Translations under genes and position numbers: made by a program
The notes under the pieces: generated by a model
Databases searched by the model: none
Seen by the model: the letters and a program-made list of their open reading frames with translations, nothing else
Told to the model about the DNA's origin: nothing
Assembly (NCBI RefSeq): GCF_002157735.2
Contig: NZ_AP018689.1
Location: 434,001 to 498,000, forward strand
Length of the DNA stretch: 64,000 bases
Origin: Vibrio aphrogenes
Lineage (GTDB): Bacteria; Pseudomonadota; Gammaproteobacteria; Enterobacterales; Vibrionaceae
Direction of reading: 5' to 3'
In this document: positions 1,772 to 33,419 of the stretch, piece by piece
Layout: each line of letters begins with the position of its first letter
How positions within the stretch are numbered: position 1 is the stretch's first letter

Positions 1772-2836
1772 TTAATCTCTAGGGTCTTCAGCAATCGTAA
1801 CGGGTAATGTTAGAGATTTGCCATCTCGTAAAATATCGAAGTTAACTACGGTGCCGGGACGAAACTCTGCCACCATGTCTAAAACACTTTGACTATTAAT
1901 GACTTTTTTACCATCAATTCCCACGATGACATCTTTTTCTTTGAGCGTCGCTTTATCGGCAGGTGAACCTTCGGCAATACTGAGAACCACGATACCATTA
2001 ACATAATCAATACCCAGCAAGCGAGCGGCAACCGCATTCATATCTTGAGCGTCGATACCAATGTAACCACGAATTACTCGACCATCGGCAATAATTTTTG
2101 TCATGATCTTATGGGCTAATTTATAAGGAATCGCAAAAGAAATACCATAGGTTTCCAAGTCTGTTGCTTGTTGGAATGAAGCCGTATTAATTCCGATTAA
2201 CTCACCTAAGGTATTCACTAAAGCGCCGCCAGAGTTTCCCTTGTTGATTGCCGCATCGGTTTGGATAAAGGCTTGTCGTCCATCAGCACTGACGGAGGAG
2301 CGGCCGATGGCTGAAATAATGCCAAAGGTGGTGGTTTGTCCTAAGTTGTAAGGATTACCTATGGCTAATACCACATCGCCAACTTTGGAGTTAGAGTCGG
2401 GGTTTTGTGGGATCACCGGTAAATTATTCATTTCAACTTTGAGAACAGCAATATCTGTGCGTTTGTCAGAGCCCACCAATTGAGCACTGGATACTCGACC
2501 ATCTTGCAATGCCACAACAATTTGATCGGCTTGAGCTACCACATGGTAATTGGTAATGATATACCCTTTATCGGACACGATAACGCCAGAGCCTAAGCCT
2601 TGGGTTTTGAGTTTTAAGCGGTCGCCTTCAACATATTGTCGGCTATAAATATTGGCGACAGCAGGACCTGCTCGATGGACCGCATGGCTAAATGAAATTT
2701 GCATATCATCAAAAGTTTCAGCTTTAGGTTCCGATTCAATATGCAAAATATCCTGACGTAACGATGGTACTGCGAATAAAATTACGACAGCGGTTGCTAG
2801 GCCAATAAGAATAGGTCGCAGCAAAAAATTAACCAT
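1772..2836 (-). CDS. degS: Membrane-anchored site-1 serine protease DegS
   Basis: DegS senses unassembled outer-membrane porins and makes the first cut in the anti-sigma factor RseA, activating sigma E. The 354 aa show an N-terminal membrane anchor (about residues 5-24), a trypsin-like domain with triad His98 (TNYHVV), Asp128 (RTDIAVLK) and Ser202 (KGNSGGALVN), then one PDZ domain from about residue 255. A single PDZ plus an uncleaved anchor separates it from DegQ. It lies downstream of degQ on the same strand, as in E. coli, but a strong hairpin between them suggests partial uncoupling or an own promoter. Confidence 0.95.
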   Translation of the reverse strand: MVNFLLRPILIGLATAVVILFAVPSLRQDILHIESEPKAETFDDMQISFSHAVHRAGPAVANIYSRQYVEGDRLKLKTQGLGSGVIVSDKGYIITNYHVVAQADQIVVALQDGRVSSAQLVGSDKRTDIAVLKVEMNNLPVIPQNPDSNSKVGDVVLAIGNPYNLGQTTTFGIISAIGRSSVSADGRQAFIQTDAAINKGNSGGALVNTLGELIGINTASFQQATDLETYGISFAIPYKLAHKIMTKIIADGRVIRGYIGIDAQDMNAVAARLLGIDYVNGIVVLSIAEGSPADKATLKEKDVIVGIDGKKVINSQSVLDMVAEFRPGTVVNFDILRDGKSLTLPVTIAEDPRD

Positions 2837-2905
2837 TGGTATCCTCAGGTGCGGGTATGAATTAAAGGGAGTCTTGCAAAGAATAGCACCGGATAGAAAG
2901 CAAAG

Positions 2906-2937
2906 AAAAGAGAAGTTTAGCGCGAAACTTCTCTTTT
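2906..2937 (-). terminator. Hairpin terminator between degQ and degS
   Basis: A perfect 13-bp stem, AAAAGAGAAGTTT (2906-2918) with AAACTTCTCTTTT (2925-2937), has a 6-nt loop. Read on the minus strand it ends in a T-rich stretch, so it should terminate or attenuate degQ transcripts before degS. Confidence 0.75.
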
Positions 2938-2968
2938 CTGTTGGTTATGGCGTTGCTAGTTAGGAGAA

Positions 2969-4342
2969 TTATTGAACCACTAAGTAAATAGTGCGTTCTC
3001 CTCGTTGAATGTTCAAGGCCAAGATATTGGTTTTTTGCTCAAGGACTTTTTGCATTTGTGCTAAATTCTTCACGCGAGTCCTATTTACGCCAATAATGAT
3101 ATCGCCTGCTTGCAGTTGATAACGTTCCGCCGCTGAGCCTTTCGTGATGTCGGTAATCTTGACGCCAGCAATTGGATCGTGGCTGTCAGTATTACTAAAT
3201 TTGGCACCATCAAGCCCCGGATGCAGTTCGGCAGCATTGGCTTGGATTTGTTCTGCTTCCCCTAGGGTGACATTTTTAGTGATATTTTTACCATCACGGA
3301 TGATGCCTATCTTGACGGTTTTCCCTGCACCAATGGTGGCAATTTTGGCACGTAATTCACCAAAGGTGTTGATCTTCTTATCATTAATCGAAACTAAAAC
3401 ATCACCCGCTTTTAAGCCTGCTTTTTCTGCTGCGCTGTTGGGCATGACTTGACTTACAAAGGCACCTTTACTGCTGTCGTAGCCCATTGCTTCGGCAAGG
3501 TCTGGGGTGATCTCTCCCCCTTGGATGCCTAATATGCCACGCTTAACGCCACCAAACTCAATGATTTGTTCGGTTAAGTTTTTCACCATATTGGATGGGA
3601 TGGCAAAACCAATACCGACATTACCACCATTTGGCCCTAAGATAGCGGTGTTAATTCCGACCAGTTCACCTTTCAGGTTGACTAAGGCTCCACCTGAGTT
3701 GCCGGTGTTAATAGCGGCATCGGTTTGAATAAAGTTTTCAAAGTTTTCAATATTAAGCCCACTACGACCTAATGCTGAAATGATCCCTGAGGTAACAGTT
3801 TGTCCTAAACCAAATGGGTTACCTATTGCGACTGCAAAATCACCAACGCGCAGTTGATCAGAGTCAGCCATTTTAATTTGAGTTAAACCGGATACGCTCT
3901 TTTCGAGTTTTAGAATGGCGATATCTGACAGTTTATCACCACCAATTAATGTGGCTTTTATTTCTCGGCCATCGGATAGGGCTACTTGGATTTTATCGGC
4001 TTCATTAATGACATGATAATTAGTCACAATATAGCCTTTATTCGCATCAATAATGACGCCAGAGCCTAGACCTCTGAATTGACGTTCAGGTTGAGCTGGA
4101 ACGGGGAAGTCTGGTCCAAAGAAGAAGCGGAATTGCTCTGGAATGGATTGTCCACTAGCGTGTTTCTTGCCTTCTACGAGCACAGAAACTACAGCCGGAG
4201 TCACTTGCTCAAGCATAGGAGCAAGGCTCGGCATTTCTTGGCCATTTAATGACGTCGGAAGGGTAGCACTGGCTGACACCGGGGTTAAAACAGCACTAAG
4301 GCTTAATGAGATAGCACTCAGAACAAGCAAAGGTTTTTTCAT
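2969..4342 (-). CDS. degQ: Periplasmic serine endoprotease DegQ (DegP/HtrA family)
   Basis: This periplasmic protease and chaperone degrades misfolded envelope proteins. The 457 aa begin with a signal peptide cleaved after ASA at about residue 26. The protease domain has His110 (TNYHVI), Asp140 (LSDIAILK) and Ser216 (TGNSGGALVN), followed by two PDZ domains (roughly 255-345 and 370-457). The length, close to E. coli DegQ (455) and below DegP (474), the short LA loop and the place beside degS favour DegQ. In many vibrios this is the only DegP/DegQ protein and may serve both roles. Confidence 0.93.
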   Translation of the reverse strand: MKKPLLVLSAISLSLSAVLTPVSASATLPTSLNGQEMPSLAPMLEQVTPAVVSVLVEGKKHASGQSIPEQFRFFFGPDFPVPAQPERQFRGLGSGVIIDANKGYIVTNYHVINEADKIQVALSDGREIKATLIGGDKLSDIAILKLEKSVSGLTQIKMADSDQLRVGDFAVAIGNPFGLGQTVTSGIISALGRSGLNIENFENFIQTDAAINTGNSGGALVNLKGELVGINTAILGPNGGNVGIGFAIPSNMVKNLTEQIIEFGGVKRGILGIQGGEITPDLAEAMGYDSSKGAFVSQVMPNSAAEKAGLKAGDVLVSINDKKINTFGELRAKIATIGAGKTVKIGIIRDGKNITKNVTLGEAEQIQANAAELHPGLDGAKFSNTDSHDPIAGVKITDITKGSAAERYQLQAGDIIIGVNRTRVKNLAQMQKVLEQKTNILALNIQRGERTIYLVVQ

Positions 4343-27097: not shown

Positions 27098-27172
27098 ATG
27101 ATGTTTATCAATAGCACTGCGATTATGACCACCATTATTACCGACACCATGTATGTTGGGGCAGGCTGGTAA
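27098..27172 (+). CDS. thrL: Threonine operon leader peptide
   Basis: A 24-codon frame starts with two ATGs and ends TAA, 13 bases before the left arm of the attenuator. It contains five Thr and four Ile codons, including the block TTIITDT at residues 11-17. E. coli ThrL has the same kind of Thr/Ile cluster and also ends shortly before the terminator; the endings GAGW here and GAG in E. coli are alike. Ribosome stalling on these codons would sense both amino acids. It was too short for usual gene finding. An IS element now lies between it and thrA. Confidence 0.85.
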   Translation: MMFINSTAIMTTIITDTMYVGAGW

Positions 27173-27184
27173 GCGAAAGTTTTC

Positions 27185-27201
27185 AAAAAAAGGCCTGTAT
27201 C
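27185..27201 (+). terminator. Thr attenuator, left arm (split by IS insertion)
   Basis: AAAAAAAGGCCTGTATC is the exact reverse complement of 28639-28655. The two arms would form a 17-bp stem with a 6-nt loop (CCACCA) and seven terminal T's. The IS element at 27206-28633 now separates them, so the terminator should no longer form efficiently. Confidence 0.85.
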
Positions 27202-27236
27202 CCACTGAAGTGACCCCTTAAAGTTGGACATTTCTG

Positions 27237-28082
27237 TTATGCGGCTTCTAAGGCCTGATTTCGGTATTCTACCGGAGTTAGGCCTTTTAATTTCACCTTA
27301 ATCCGATCGTTATTGTAATAATCAATATATTCATCAATGCATGCCATAAGTTGCTCAGCACTGTCAAAGTGGTAACCATGGTACATTTCTGTTTTTAAAA
27401 GTGCGAAGAAGTTTTCAGCCACAGCATTATCAAGACAGTTTCCTTTTCTCGACATACTCTGATTTATTCTTTTCTCTTTTAGCTTGTTACGATAATCACG
27501 GTGTTGGTATTGCCACCCTTGGTCACTATGTAAAGTTAACGAGGACGCTTGACTTAACTTACTCGTCGCTTTCTCTAGCATCTCGGTCACGAGATGTAAT
27601 TTAGGTGAGCTCGCTACAGTATGACTAACGACTTCTTGATTAAATAAATCGATGATAGGAGATAAATAGACTTTTTCACCTGCCACTTTAAATTCCGTCA
27701 CATCGGTCACCCATTTTTCATTTGGTTTCGTCGATTTAAAGTCTCGCTTCAGAATATTCGGGGCAATACGCCCAATCGCACCTTTATAAGAACGATATTT
27801 CTTCGGTCTTACGGTCGATTTTAGCCCTAGTTTTGCCATTAAGCGCTGAACCGTTTTATGATTTAAGTAGATGCCTTCTCTACGTAAAGCATAATGAATG
27901 CGTCGATAACCATATCGACCTTTATGCTTATGAAATATTCTTTCAATACTCGCTATCTCATTCGCGTAAGGCTCGGGAGTGCTCAACACTTGGCATTGGT
28001 AGTAATACACACTCTTGGGCAATCCAATGGATTGCAATAAATGCTGGATTTTGTGTTGGTGTTTTAGAGCTTGAACAGTCAA
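27237..28082 (-). CDS. IS3-family transposase OrfB (DDE integrase domain)
   Basis: This is the catalytic half of the transposase. The 281 aa contain an HTH_21 region (KGRYGYRRIHYALRREG) and an rve integrase core with the DDE triad in WVTDVTEF, LHSDQGWQYQ and NAVAENFFALLKTE. Blocks such as RPNEKWVTDV-like, SMSRKGNCLDN and LKGLTPVEYRNQ are typical of the IS150 group. The frame lies -1 to orfA with a 4-base overlap. A TTG start is possible, but the usual product is an OrfAB fusion made by -1 frameshifting at the A-rich stretch AAAGAAAAAGC near 28086-28096. Confidence 0.93.
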   Translation of the reverse strand: MTVQALKHQHKIQHLLQSIGLPKSVYYYQCQVLSTPEPYANEIASIERIFHKHKGRYGYRRIHYALRREGIYLNHKTVQRLMAKLGLKSTVRPKKYRSYKGAIGRIAPNILKRDFKSTKPNEKWVTDVTEFKVAGEKVYLSPIIDLFNQEVVSHTVASSPKLHLVTEMLEKATSKLSQASSLTLHSDQGWQYQHRDYRNKLKEKRINQSMSRKGNCLDNAVAENFFALLKTEMYHGYHFDSAEQLMACIDEYIDYYNNDRIKVKLKGLTPVEYRNQALEAA

Positions 28083-28588
28083 CGCTTTTTCTTTGCTGCT
28101 TGACGTTTTAACTTGTCCAGCTCCTCTAACTTTTTTAGAACAGCATTCTCCGCTCTCAAATAAGCCAGTTCCTCTCTGAGTTCATCAAGTGACATGTCTT
28201 CATCAGGTTTAGTCGGACGCTTATTTGATTGAGTTTTCATAGATGGTCTGCCTTTAGGTCGGGAATGTAAGCCTTGGAATCCCGACTGATTATAAAGCTT
28301 TAACCAAACAGAAATAGTCCCGTTAGAAGAAAAATTGAATTCAGCACTCGCTTGGCTTATAGACCAGTTATTTTCCCACATTGATTTTAATACCGAGAAT
28401 TTAAAATCTGCGGAATTTTCATAATCAAGAGGTAAAAATGAAGATGAACCATGGATCCTGTAAACAGAAGTCCAATAACGAATTTGGTTCGCAGGAATAG
28501 ATAACTCTTTTGCAAGAGATGTCGATGATTCGCCATCAAGGCAACGCTGAGCAATGCACAGCTTTAATTCTCTGATGTACTTAGACAT
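28079..28588 (-). CDS. IS3-family transposase OrfA (helix-turn-helix)
   Basis: This is the DNA-binding subunit of the IS transposase. From ATG 28588 (GGGGG upstream) it is 169 aa; an in-frame ATG at 28615 lies inside the terminal repeat and is less likely. Two helix-turn-helix regions are seen (SSTSLAKELSIPANQIRYW and SISQASAEFNFSSNGTISVW), then a leucine-zipper-like coiled coil (ELREELAYLRAENAVLKKLEEL). It ends KKKR at the frameshift site shared with orfB. IS150 OrfA is similar in length (173 aa). Confidence 0.88.
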   Translation of the reverse strand: MSKYIRELKLCIAQRCLDGESSTSLAKELSIPANQIRYWTSVYRIHGSSSFLPLDYENSADFKFSVLKSMWENNWSISQASAEFNFSSNGTISVWLKLYNQSGFQGLHSRPKGRPSMKTQSNKRPTKPDEDMSLDELREELAYLRAENAVLKKLEELDKLKRQAAKKKR

Positions 28589-28595
28589 AAAATAA

Positions 28596-28625
28596 CCCCC
28601 AATGTTGGTGTCCAACTATTGGGGG
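28596..28625. promoter_or_regulatory. IS-end hairpin covering the orfA ribosome site
   Basis: CCCCCAAT (28596-28603) pairs with ATTGGGGG (28618-28625), and inside it GTTGG (28604-28608) pairs with CCAAC (28612-28616) around loop TGT, with one bulged T. In minus-strand RNA entering from outside the element, the GGGGG used as the orfA Shine-Dalgarno is locked in this stem. That suits a guard against transposase made from impinging transcription. Confidence 0.55.
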
Positions 28626-28638
28626 TCAGTTCACACCA

Positions 28639-28655
28639 GATACAGGCCTTTTTTT
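28639..28655 (+). terminator. Thr attenuator, right arm (split by IS insertion)
   Basis: GATACAGGCCTTTTTTT is the second arm of the thr attenuator with its T-run, perfectly complementary to 27185-27201. Without the left arm nearby it cannot act as an intrinsic terminator. It lies 33 bases before the thrA ATG. Confidence 0.85.
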
Positions 28656-28688: not shown

Positions 28689-31148
28689 ATGCGAGTACTG
28701 AAGTTTGGAGGGTCATCACTGGCCGATGCTGATCGCTTTTTAAGAGCGGCCGATATTATTATCAACAATGCTCAGCAACAAGAAGTTGCCGTGGTGTTAT
28801 CAGCACCAGGAAAAACGACCAATAAATTGGTGGCGGTGATTGAAAGTACGCTCAAAAATGGCGAGGCCGAGTTACTCATTAATGAGCTTGAACAATCATT
28901 TTATGACCTATTTGCCCACATCAAGTTACAGGTGCCTGAATTAGAAAGTACGGCATTTGATCATCAAGTAAACACCTCGATCAAGAAATTACGACAATAC
29001 GTTCATGGCATGGCTTTATTAGGAATGTGTCCTGATCATGTGAATGCTCGTATTATCAGTAAAGGCGAACGCATCTCGATTCAATTAATGAAAGCGGTGG
29101 TAGAAGCCAAAGGTAAGCCGGTCAATTTGATTGATCCTGTTTCTTATCTATTAGCTAAAGGCGATCATTTGGAAGCCATGGTGGATGTGGATATTTCTAC
29201 CGTTAATTTTCAACAATATCCGTTGCCACAAGGTCACATTAATATCATGCCAGGCTTCACTGCAGGGAATGCAAAAGGTGAATTGGTGACGCTTGGGCGC
29301 AATGGCTCGGATTATTCTGCTGCCGTATTAGCCGCGTGTTTACGTGCTGACTGTTGTGAAATTTGGACGGATGTCGATGGCGTATATAACTGCGATCCTC
29401 GTTTAGTTGAAGATGCCAGATTGCTTAAATCTTTGAGTTATCAAGAAGCCATGGAATTATCTTATTTTGGCGCTTCTGTCCTCCATCCTAAAACCATTGC
29501 TCCTATCGCTCAATTTCAAATCCCTTGTCTCATCAAAAATAGTTTTAATCCTCAAGGTGCCGGTACTTTAATCGGCCAAGATACCGGTGAAGATAATCTT
29601 GCAATCAAAGGCATTACGACATTAAGCCAATTAACCATGGTGAACGTATCAGGCCCAGGTATGAAAGGCATGGTGGGGATGGCGAGCCGTGTGTTTGGCG
29701 CTATGTCGACCTCTGGGGTATCGATTGTATTGATCACGCAATCGTCTTCGGAATACAGCATCAGTTTTTGTATTGAATCACAAGATAAATTTAAAGCGGA
29801 GTTGGCCTTACAAGATGCCTTCGAATTAGAGCTTAAAGATGGGTTGTTAGATCCGATCGAGTTTACAGATGATGTGGCGATCGTGACATTAGTTGGCGAT
29901 AAAATGCGCACTTCTCGTGGCGTTGCGGCGCAGTTCTTTGCCTCTCTTGCTGAAGTGAATGTCAATGTTGTTGCCATTGCTCAAGGCTCTTCTGAGCGTG
30001 CCATTTCTGCGGTGATTCCTGAAGACCGAGTGTCGGTGGCCATCAAGGCTTGCCATGAAAATCTCTTTAATTCTAAACACTTCCTTGATGTATTTGTCGT
30101 CGGTATCGGTGGTGTTGGTGGTGAGCTGGTGGATCAATTTCAACGTCAACAAGCGAAATTGGCCGAAAAAGGTATCGTGATTCGAGTATGTGGCCTGGCG
30201 AATTCCAAAGGCTTATTGCTCGACAGTGAAGGTTTACCTTTGGAAAACTGGCGCGATCGTATGTCTCACGCTACCGAAGAATTTAGCTTGGCTCGTATGA
30301 TTGCTTTGGTACAACGCAACCACATTATCAACCCAGTGTTGGTCGATTGTACCTCCAGTGAAGCTATTGCTAACCAATATACTGATTTCTTGGCTGCCGG
30401 CTTCCATGTGGTGACACCAAATAAGAAAGCCAACACGGCGAGCATGAGCTATTACCATCAGTTACGAGAAATCGCCCGTAGTACTCGTCGTAAATTGATG
30501 TATGAAACAACGGTAGGTGCAGGCTTGCCAGTGATTGAAAACTTACAGAATTTGATTTCAGCAGGGGACGAATTAGAGAAGTTTAACGGCATTTTATCGG
30601 GTTCATTATCGTATATTTTCGGTAAATTAGATGAAGGCATGAGTCTTAGCCAAGCCACCAATATTGCCAAAGAGAACGGTTTTACAGAGCCGGATCCTCG
30701 TGATGATTTATCTGGCATGGACGTAGCGCGTAAGTTATTAATTCTTGCTCGTGAAGCCGGGATGGAATTAGAGCTAGATGATGTGGTGGTTGAACAAGCC
30801 TTACCACCGGGCTTTGATGATTCAGGCAGCGTTGAAGAATTCATGGCACGTTTGCCAGAAGCAGATGCTTACTTTGCGGCTTTATCTAAACAAGCGGCTG
30901 AAGAAGGAAAAGTGCTGCGTTATGTAGGCAGTATCGATGAAGGCCAATGTAAGGTGAAAATGATCGCGGTCGATGAAAATGATCCGATGTTTAAAATCAA
31001 AGATGGCGAAAATGCTTTGGCGTTCTACAGTCGTTATTACCAGCCAATCCCATTGGTTTTACGTGGTTATGGCGCGGGTACTCAAGTGACCGCCGCTGGG
31101 GTGTTTTCGGATGTGATGCGTACTTTAGGTTGGAAATTAGGAGTTTAA
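28689..31148 (+). CDS. thrA: Bifunctional aspartokinase I/homoserine dehydrogenase I
   Basis: ThrA performs steps one and three of threonine synthesis: phosphorylation of aspartate and reduction of aspartate semialdehyde to homoserine. From ATG 28689 (GGAGGAAGGG upstream) it is 819 aa; E. coli has 820. The kinase domain starts [17 protein letters not shown], two ACT regulatory domains lie at about 310-450 ([26 protein letters not shown]), and the dehydrogenase has [25 protein letters not shown] and [17 protein letters not shown]. The protein appears intact. Its upstream attenuator is disrupted by the IS. Confidence 0.97.
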
Positions 31149-31149
31149 T

Positions 31150-32133
31150 ATGTCTTTATCTCAATCAAATCAACCTCAAAGTGTTGCTGTCTATGCACCG
31201 GCCTCAATTGGCAACGTGAGTGTTGGGTTTGATGTCTTAGGTGCGGCGGTGTCACCAATAGATGGTAGTTTATTGGGTGACCGAGTGTTGGTGGCATCAG
31301 GAGTAACCCCGTTTGAGTTAAAAACAGCGGGCCGCTTTGTTTCGAAACTGCCCGCCGATCCTAAAGACAATATTGTCTATGATTGTTGGGTGGTTTTTGC
31401 GCGCGAGCTAGAAAAGAAAAATATTCCGTTACTGCCACTGGAAATGACGCTTGAGAAAAATATGCCGATTGGCTCTGGCTTAGGTTCAAGCGCTTGTTCG
31501 ATTGTTGCCGCACTGGACGCCTTAAATCGTTTTCATGGTGAACCATTAAATGAAATGGCATTATTGGCCTTAATGGGGGAAATGGAAGGCAATATTTCTG
31601 GTGGAATTCACTATGACAATGTCGCACCATGCTATCTCGGTGGCTTGCAATTAATGTTGGAAGAACTCGGCATTATCAGTCAAGAAGTGCCTTGCTTTGA
31701 TGAATGGTATTGGGTCATGGCCTATCCGGGAATTAAAGTTTCGACCGCAGAAGCGCGTGCTATTTTGCCATCACAATATCGTCGTCAAGACATCATTGCG
31801 CATGGTCGTCATTTAGGTGGTTTTATTCATGCGTGTCATTCAGCTCAGCCTGAATTAGCGGCAAAACTCATTAAAGATGTGATTGCTGAACCTTATCGTG
31901 AAAAGCTATTGCCAGGCTTTGCTGAAGCGCGTAAATACGCCATGTCAGCCGGAGCTCTTGCGTGTGGTATCTCAGGTTCAGGGCCTACCTTATTTACTAT
32001 TTGCAGTAAAAAAGAGGTCGCAGAGCGAGTCGCATGCTGGTTAAATGAACATTACATACAAAATGAAGAAGGTTTCGTACATATTTGTCGTTTAGACAAG
32101 GAAGGTTCGAGAGTAACAGGAAGTGAATTATGA
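31150..32133 (+). CDS. thrB: Homoserine kinase
   Basis: ThrB phosphorylates homoserine for threonine synthesis. The 327 aa have the GHMP-kinase N-terminus ([23 protein letters not shown]), the ATP-binding motif [17 protein letters not shown] near 110-126, and the C-terminal [15 protein letters not shown]. It starts one base after the thrA stop and overlaps thrC by four bases, so thrABC is one translationally coupled operon. Confidence 0.97.
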
Positions 32134-33419
32134 AGCTGTACAATATCAAAGAAAACGATCAACAAGTCTCTTTTGGTCAAGCGGTGCGCCAAGGATTAGG
32201 GCGTAATCAAGGGCTCTTTTTTCCATCAGAATTACCTCAATTTGATGATATCGATGCATTGCTTGCAGAAGATTTTGTGAGCCGCAGTAGTAAGATTTTA
32301 TCGGCGTTAATTGGCGATGAACTGTCGGCAGAGCAAGTCAATCAATTAGTCGCAGCGGCCTTTCAGTTTCCAGCCCCGATTAAATCAGTGAAAGATGACG
32401 TGTATGCCTTAGAGCTTTTCCATGGCCCTACTTTGGCATTTAAAGATTTCGGTGGTCGTTTTATGGCGCAATCTTTAGCGGCGGTGACCAGCGATAAAAA
32501 CGAAAAAATTACCATTTTAACCGCTACCTCTGGTGATACTGGCGCTGCAGTGGCTCACGCTTTTTATGGCCTAGAAAATATCAATGTGGTGATCTTGTAC
32601 CCGAAAGGGAAAATTAGCCCATTACAGGAAAAACTATTCTGTACGTTAGGTGGCAACATTCATACTGTTGCGATTGATGGTGATTTCGATGCTTGCCAAG
32701 CGCTCGTGAAACAAGCTTTTGATGACCAAACACTACGTGAAGAAATCGGCTTGAACTCAGCGAACTCGATTAATATCAGCCGTCTCATGGCGCAGATCTG
32801 TTATTACTTTGAAGCGGCAGCACAGATGAGTAAAGCTGAACGTGAAAACTTAGTGGTGTCTGTGCCAAGTGGAAATTTTGGTAACCTAACCGCAGGTCTC
32901 TTAGCTAAAGCGTTAGGTTTGCCTATCAAACGCTTTATTGCTGCGACCAATGCCAACGATACGGTGCCACGTTACCTAGAAACAGGGAAATGGGATCCAA
33001 AACCCACAGTTGCGACTACCTCTAATGCGATGGATGTCAGTCAACCTAATAACTGGCCACGTATTGAAGAACTGTGCCGCATCAAAGGTTGGGGATTAGA
33101 TACTCTAGGTAAGGGCATGGTCACCGATGATCAAAGTGCTGCCTCTGTCGTTGAGCTGAATGAGTTAGGTTACTTATGTGAACCTCATGGCGCGATTGCT
33201 TATCGGCTTTTAAATGAGCAACTACAGCCAGGTGAAACCGGATTATTCTTATGTACAGCACATCCAGCGAAATTTAAAGAAGTCGTCGATGAGATTTTAG
33301 GTTCTGATATTGATGTTCCAGGGCCATTGGCGAAGCACGGTGCGATGGAGTTATTGTCTGAAGATTTAGCGGCTGATTTTGATTTGCTGAAAGCGGTTTT
33401 AAGAAAGGTACAGAGATAG
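32130..33419 (+). CDS. thrC: Threonine synthase
   Basis: ThrC converts O-phosphohomoserine to threonine with pyridoxal phosphate. The 429 aa show the PLP lysine in [10 protein letters not shown] (near residue 107), the phosphate-binding TSGDTGAA, and the long-form family blocks [15 protein letters not shown] and [14 protein letters not shown] overlap with thrB marks coupling. It is followed by a bidirectional terminator facing grcA. Confidence 0.97.

Follow-up and report, generated by a model that had tools for sequence, protein, structure and literature searches.

An IS3-family, IS150-like insertion element of Vibrio aphrogenes lies exactly in the loop of the intrinsic terminator of the thr attenuator, and very probably it was brought there by a transposase that seeks out the palindromic DNA of such terminators, with the hairpins carried by the element itself likely replacing the terminator that was broken. 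The target bases are duplicated, the nearest relative keeps the empty site, related elements occupy hairpins far more often than control positions do, and the element has an inward-facing hairpin at each of its two ends, one of which is under a constraint on synonymous codons. The locus was found in a window of 64,000 nucleotides, the whole stretch of DNA that was analyzed, and the positions given for it below are those of this window.

Direct reading of the locus confirmed the arrangement described in the initial annotation, namely an intact element sitting precisely in the terminator loop with both arms kept. The 5′ arm AAAAAAAGGCCTGTATC (27185–27201, plus strand) and the 3′ arm GATACAGGCCTTTTTTT with its T tract (28639–28655, plus strand) are exact reverse complements of 17 bp, and the terminator obtained by rejoining them has the loop CCACCA, at which the element splits the hairpin. 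The element, 1,428 bp in length, is flanked by a duplicated CAC (left copy at 27203–27205 and right copy at 28634–28636, both read on the plus strand), and no part of either arm has been lost. Upstream, the leader peptide MMFINSTAIMTTIITDTMYVGAGW (27098–27172, plus strand), which was assigned by reading and by the presence of the same type of peptide 5′ of thrA in relatives, consists of 24 codons rich in those for threonine and isoleucine and is followed by the terminator ahead of thrA, which is the arrangement of a thr attenuator. The alignment to the Rfam family Thr_leader (RF00506) was below threshold at the split locus, with 21.9 bits against a gathering score of 55, whereas all five IS-free relatives scanned passed with 59.2 to 72.5 bits, indicating that the failure at the split locus is due to the insertion. 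Downstream, the frames of thrABC are open and intact, as had been stated; they comprise thrA for aspartokinase-homoserine dehydrogenase (28689–31148; open reading frame list and family match), thrB (31150–32133) and thrC (32130–33419), the last being the sole copy in the genome, all on the plus strand and the latter two named by position and sequence.

A comparison with Vibrio genomes lacking the element had been proposed as a check, with an uninterrupted hairpin as the expectation. When the start of ThrA was used as the query against 41 genomes, the upstream region was read in every other member of the genus among them, 24 in number (L135–L158), and each of the 24 had an unsplit hairpin 5′ of thrA, in the form GGCCTGTATC-loop-GATACAGGCC or one closely similar, with the 5′ arm unbroken. 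The nearest relative (L135) reads AAAAAAAGGCCTGTATC-CCACCA-GATACAGGCCTTTTTTT, letter for letter the empty site expected once the element and one CAC are taken out. Because the hairpin is kept in all 24 relatives and the empty site is identical in the nearest one, the split hairpin is not a product of chance. The insertion was private to the V. aphrogenes genome among the genomes read. Upstream of thrA in five loci of other families, a hairpin of different sequence was present in four, and none was seen 5′ of thrA at L159, a locus from another family.

The element (27206–28633, minus strand) has its right inverted repeat at 27206 and its left inverted repeat at 28633, running from TGAAGTGACCCC (27206) to GGGGGTCAGTTCA (28633), and its transposase genes are on the minus strand, opposed to the direction of thr. 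OrfA (28079–28588, minus strand; 169 aa from its ATG, assigned by the open reading frame list and a family match) is a helix-turn-helix protein, and OrfB (27237–28082, minus strand; 281 aa) is a DDE (rve) transposase that scored 326 bits with NCBIfam transpos_IS3 (cut-off 160); the two genes overlap by 4 bases in different frames, and the Pfam matches of the transposase proteins were rve, rve_2 and HTH_21. The element was placed in the IS3 family on the basis of the transpos_IS3 match with its rve core, the TG...CA ends, the imperfect inverted repeats and the short duplication, which was 3 or 4 bases in 9 of the 10 near-identical full-length copies in the V. aphrogenes genome. Its likeness to the IS150 group lies in the 53% identity of OrfB to that of Escherichia coli IS150, the TG...CA ends, the length of the duplication and the OrfA/OrfB overlap, and in a 45-row tree, which has no other IS3 group as an outgroup, IS150 also falls among the relatives of the element. 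Relatives in the genus showed about 65 to 69% DNA identity, with some closer fragments in addition.

Insertion into a terminator loop with both arms kept had been regarded as unusual, but it turned out to be the rule in the genome itself, in the genus and beyond it. For each site, the flanks were joined minus one copy of the duplication, and the best ungapped stem enclosing the insertion was scored, with a threshold of 18. The genus set was obtained from 17 genomes, in each of which up to 22 candidates were scored (of 69 in the case of the genome G129), so that sites in the genus number at least 91; it comprised 91 sites with both ends, including the copies of V. aphrogenes itself and counting identical 30-base flanks once, and 22 further loci gave no site (11 with the left end only and 11 without a recognized pair of ends, L037 and L056 being one copy). 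Seven of the 10 copies in the V. aphrogenes genome were in hairpins, the stems of which were unrelated in sequence, and 82 of the 91 genus sites among the matches listed reached the threshold, 81 of them together with an A or T tract (70 with the insertion in the loop and 11 in an arm). The tract rule was a lenient one, under which two sites, L036 and L079, passed on A content alone. Random positions in the same flanks gave a hairpin in 675 of 13,650 cases (5%) and a hairpin with a tract in 187 of 13,650, and merging the sites common to species left the proportions at 76/85 and 75/85, respectively. The IS5-family elements of G129, used as a control in the form of 26 copies chosen out of a longer list (at least 26) and having 9 bases duplicated in 22 of the 26, were in hairpins in only 2/26 cases and in hairpins with a tract in 1/26, and none of the 26 reached a score of 20. 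Within G129 alone, the comparison was 20/22 for the element against 2/26 for the IS5 family (Fisher P = 3.3e-9). The folding energy, expressed relative to positions in the same locus, was likewise low, with a mean z of −2.87 for the genus and −2.82 for the wide set of more distant relatives described below, compared with +0.18 for the IS5-family control. The preference is not absolute, since 3 of the 10 own copies, 9 of the 91 genus sites and 8 of the 56 sites of the wide set were without such a hairpin. In addition, no obvious hairpin was found on inspection of L112, a locus with diverged ends that is outside the pattern and the counts. Base pairing around the insertion point in the folded site was also tried as a measure and was dropped, because control positions were enclosed about equally often.

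Such an excess could in principle arise if the element inserted anywhere and only copies at harmless places, such as operon ends, persisted, which we regard as very improbable. Most terminators do lie outside genes, and repeats and insertion elements are reported to be in excess between the convergent genes of pneumococcus (PMC3049150). Selection of this kind, however, does not account for the placement of insertions no more than about 3 bases from the dyad or for the contrast with the IS5 family in the same genome, and it leaves unexplained both the regulatory attenuator as a target and the occurrence of the same orthologous terminator as a target in both orientations. Targeting by the transposase is the reading that we prefer, and the position of the insertions gives an indication of what is recognized. 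Across the 82 hairpins, the midpoint of the duplication was at a median distance of 1 base from the dyad and within 3 bases in 87%, and the insertion was inside the loop in all nine targets whose loops were 13 to 27 bases long. The palindrome would be recognized by the transposase as DNA, probably in the shape of a hairpin or cruciform, and the A and T tracts that flank it on either side, together with the motif AAGCC...GGCTT in the case of one subgroup, may contribute to the recognition.

To what extent sequence contributes can be seen from a comparison, under the same filter, of 66 targets with 39 background terminators in the flanks. The motif AAGCC...GGCTT was present in 52/66 genus targets against 2/39 background terminators, the weaker of the two tracts was longer in the targets (P = 3.4e-4), the loop was slightly larger and the stem score was higher. 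The excess of the motif indicates that, in the genus set, there is a preference for sequence also and not for shape alone, although the hairpins of the V. aphrogenes genome do not share it. These two enrichments, of the motif and of the tracts, are what would be expected if the transposase read only such a short sequence and terminators merely happened to contain it. We consider this rather unlikely, as the seven hairpins of V. aphrogenes have unrelated stems, the targets of distant relatives have pairing and not sequence in common, insertion occurs within the loop even where it is 13 to 27 bases long, and the palindromes at L036 and L079, both in the genome G082, are without a T tract. The latter two are ACCCCGG/CCGGGGT and ATCCCGGA/TCCGGGAT, respectively, and they may hint that it is the palindrome, and not termination, that is recognized.

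Another reading is that targeting follows transcription, integration taking place where RNA polymerase pauses or is released at terminators, and the inclusion of an attenuator and of a hairpin beside ssrA among the targets is in line with it. It is quite unlikely, given that the insertion is at the dyad of the DNA and not at the release point past the T tract, and that the element showed no orientation bias with respect to the better T tract (16 sites one way, 22 the other and 44 symmetric). Orthologous terminators of different species were found with the element in opposite orientations (L033/L100, L071/L114 and L093/L125) or with different duplications (L054/L069), indicating separate insertion events at the same terminators.

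To see how widely the hairpin habit is spread, relatives of OrfB were collected from 295 genomes of the order, 369 genomes of the class and a named collection, and 115 loci were taken (27 of 30 from the order, 8 of 14 from the class and the best 80 of 572 from the named collection). With at least 17 of 28 matches between the inverted repeats and 3 duplicated bases as criteria, 58 of the 115 were excluded (20 without ends and 38 failing in the repeats or the duplication), leaving 57 with reliable ends and a duplication and 56 after the removal of L310, a repeat of L172. In this wide set, in which the named collection is represented by its best 80 of 572, 48 of the 56 sites were in hairpins and 39 of the 56 also had a tract, compared with 359 and 65, respectively, of 3,360 control positions. 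The proportion in hairpins was 13/14 for relatives with an OrfB identity of 58% or more, 22/26 for those at 50 to 58% and 13/16 for those below 50%, as judged by tblastn over a range of 45 to 64%. The hosts with hairpin sites belong to seven phyla, Pseudomonadota, Bacillota, Bacteroidota, Spirochaetota, Fibrobacterota, Actinomycetota and Mycoplasmatota. We are somewhat inclined to regard the elements of the IS150 group as terminator replacers across phyla, which would home on terminator hairpins and bring two inward-facing terminators, one of them within transposase codons, so that the insertion would be silent for most hosts and visible where the terminator is a switch, as in the thr attenuator and the sok RNAs. 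A lineage that had lost the hairpin habit was also sought and was rejected, as the misses were scattered on the tree, requiring 7 changes against a mean of 7.5 after shuffling; in that tree, L274 and L275 were labeled as misses for want of a score, although L275 is actually in a hairpin. This L275 is a relative of the element in E. coli N1420 (about 2501–3929 of the locus), which is located in a hairpin with an A tract adjoining ssrA and was matched in only 2 of 5,426 E. coli genomes. A further relative, L187, from another family of the order and with 42% identity, lies between inverted AAGTGCGGT motifs that are able to form a hairpin and is outside the counts because it failed the end criterion. 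We take the AAGTGCGGT motifs to be the uptake signals of Pasteurellaceae.

The element itself carries terminator-like hairpins that face inward. Just inward of the right inverted repeat there is a perfect 17-bp hairpin with the loop TTC and the tail TTAATTTC (27250–27286, plus strand; −25.5 kcal/mol), which is antisense to the last codons of OrfB, and at the left inverted repeat there is another with the tail TTATTTTATG (28596–28624, minus strand), just ahead of the start of OrfA. Among 49 representatives, an inward hairpin followed by a T tract was present at the OrfB end in 44 and at the other end in 36, compared with 95 of 490 interior windows. When the OrfB end was recoded with synonymous codons, the z value of the native fold was below −2 in 43 of the 49, with a mean of −3.38 on the antisense side and −2.61 on the sense side, whereas in other windows of OrfB it was below −2 in 19 of 288, with a mean of −0.17. 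Thus, the fold at the OrfB end is far better than the protein requires, which represents a constraint on synonymous codons. The location of the T tract on the antisense side favors a terminator for transcripts that enter against the genes of the element, although, as the signal is present on the sense strand also, the hairpin could act in the sense transposase mRNA. The two hairpins would then terminate host transcripts arriving from either side and, by doing so, would replace the host terminator that the element has split. A terminator for the transposase genes composed of the captured arm and the end of the element was considered and rejected, since the minus-strand fold of 27185–27290 was not unusual (z = −1.50).

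These hairpins bear on the expression of thrABC, for which the initial annotation expected that attenuation by threonine and isoleucine would be lost and that transcription would depend on read-through across the element or on a new promoter. The loss of attenuation is supported insofar as the attenuator is split, but it is doubtful that thrABC is simply freed, because the inward hairpin at 27250–27286 is ahead of thrA. A new promoter found no support, as none facing thrA stood out in a promoter scan, in which 2 promoter-like sites were detected against 4.9 in shuffled sequences, with a single one of the 2 on the plus strand; an outward promoter of the element driving constitutive expression of thrABC was rejected on the same counts. 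The transcript of the leader, thrL, would enter the element at the right inverted repeat and meet the 17-bp hairpin with its tail TTAATTTC, and in this way the regulated stop of the thr operon would be exchanged for a fixed one 45 to 81 bases inside the element. From the sequence, a low expression of thrABC that does not respond to threonine and isoleucine is predicted, barring a downstream promoter that was not recognized. The opposite outcome for thr, in which the insertion frees thrABC from attenuation and leads to constitutive expression by read-through, is a possibility to be taken seriously even if it is the less probable one; short-range formation of the attenuator hairpin is no longer possible, and thrA, thrB and thrC are all intact, but the inward 17-bp hairpin with its U-rich tail lies in the path of such read-through.

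Elements that seek hairpins are already known, among them IS1272/TnSha1, IS1397 and group IIC introns. Group IIC introns settle at the stem-loops of terminators or attC sites. They share with the present element the property of being mobile elements at stem-loops, and they are reported to insert into the attC stem-loop or immediately behind it, but they are retroelements, whereas the present element inserts into the loop by means of a DDE transposase (PMC7923331). IS1272/TnSha1 of the IS1182 family is reported to target hairpins that have no primary sequence consensus, several of which are terminators by RNA-seq (PMC4923244). That element resembles ours in this respect but belongs to another family and is reported to cut bluntly within the stem, to remove a portion of the hairpin and to produce no duplication (PMC4923244), whereas the present element inserts mostly into the loop, with 3 or 4 bases duplicated and the arms kept. 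IS1397 and ISKpn1 have an IS3-family transposase as well and, along with others, insert into REP/PU palindromes, with earlier work cited to the effect that the transposase chooses the target (PMC1525189). Their target is one repeated family of palindromes, whereas the stems here vary from site to site and are terminator-like, as seen in the seven unrelated stems of V. aphrogenes. The available part of a report on IS1447, an annotated member of the IS150 subgroup, mentions no such target (PMC6211511), and we found no statement of terminator targeting by IS150-group elements in the accessible open-licence literature, a scope that leaves most subscription papers outside it and the absence of such a statement unproven.

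The same habit was encountered in an element of a different family. Of 25 scored copies of an IS4-family element, which has TAATGCC ends and duplicates 11 to 14 bases, 24 were in hairpin loops, most of them with terminator tracts (10/11 in G129 and 14/14 of those scored in G115 and G120). The loci read were L344–L358, L284, L289, L293, L294, L298, L299, L303, L304, L307 and L308 in these three genomes; one of the eight copies of G115 (L288) could not be aligned, and the family was assigned by NCBIfam for a G129 copy. It is like the IS150-like element in its hairpin-loop sites and unlike it in its family and longer duplication, and it thus represents an independent case; the occurrence of the habit in an unrelated element in the same genomes suggests convergent evolution. 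Two genomes, G129 and G086, were very rich in insertion elements, with 97 and 95 matches to the transposase family PF01609, respectively (E <= 1e-8).

E. coli IS150 itself differs from its relatives in that its sites, most of which lie in sok genes, are weak as hairpins by the stem score used here. We read 17 loci (L274, L276–L279 and L359–L370, L370 being ISKpn8), which represent 11 distinct sites, situated at hokA, hokB and hokE, at rbsR, at one other gene and at plasmid loci, the last mostly next to hok. None of the 11 distinct sites reached the stem score of 18, the highest being 16, the mean z of the fold was −1.27 (10 sites), and no hairpin was seen at the hokA and rbsR copies. The hairpin case for E. 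coli IS150 proper is therefore weak and suggestive only. Rfam matches to sok overlapped the ends of the element at all nine loci scanned, 5 of them above the gathering score. IS150 or ISKpn8 was present in genes for sok antitoxin RNAs on chromosomes and plasmids of E. coli and its relatives (L274, L277, L278, L360, L364 and L367–L370), and some of the copies were inside the loop of the sok hairpin. That hok loci carry insertion elements is an old observation, and insertion into the sok hairpin may explain it.

The present analysis extends one odd insertion to a rule that applies to a widespread group of mobile elements, and it suggests why copies of E. coli IS150 occur in hok/sok loci. It also offers a testable reason why such elements might cause little harm, in that they target the loops of terminators and likely bring replacements, and it serves as a warning that terminators and attenuators are hot spots of mutation. 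A DDE transposase together with a DNA palindrome should provide an accessible model for structure-guided target choice. Solitary pieces of the left end of the element, about 40 to 60 bases in length, were also found scattered in the genomes of V. aphrogenes and other members of the genus; those at L020 and L021 consist of a hairpin with a T-rich tail, and such pieces might act as terminators themselves.
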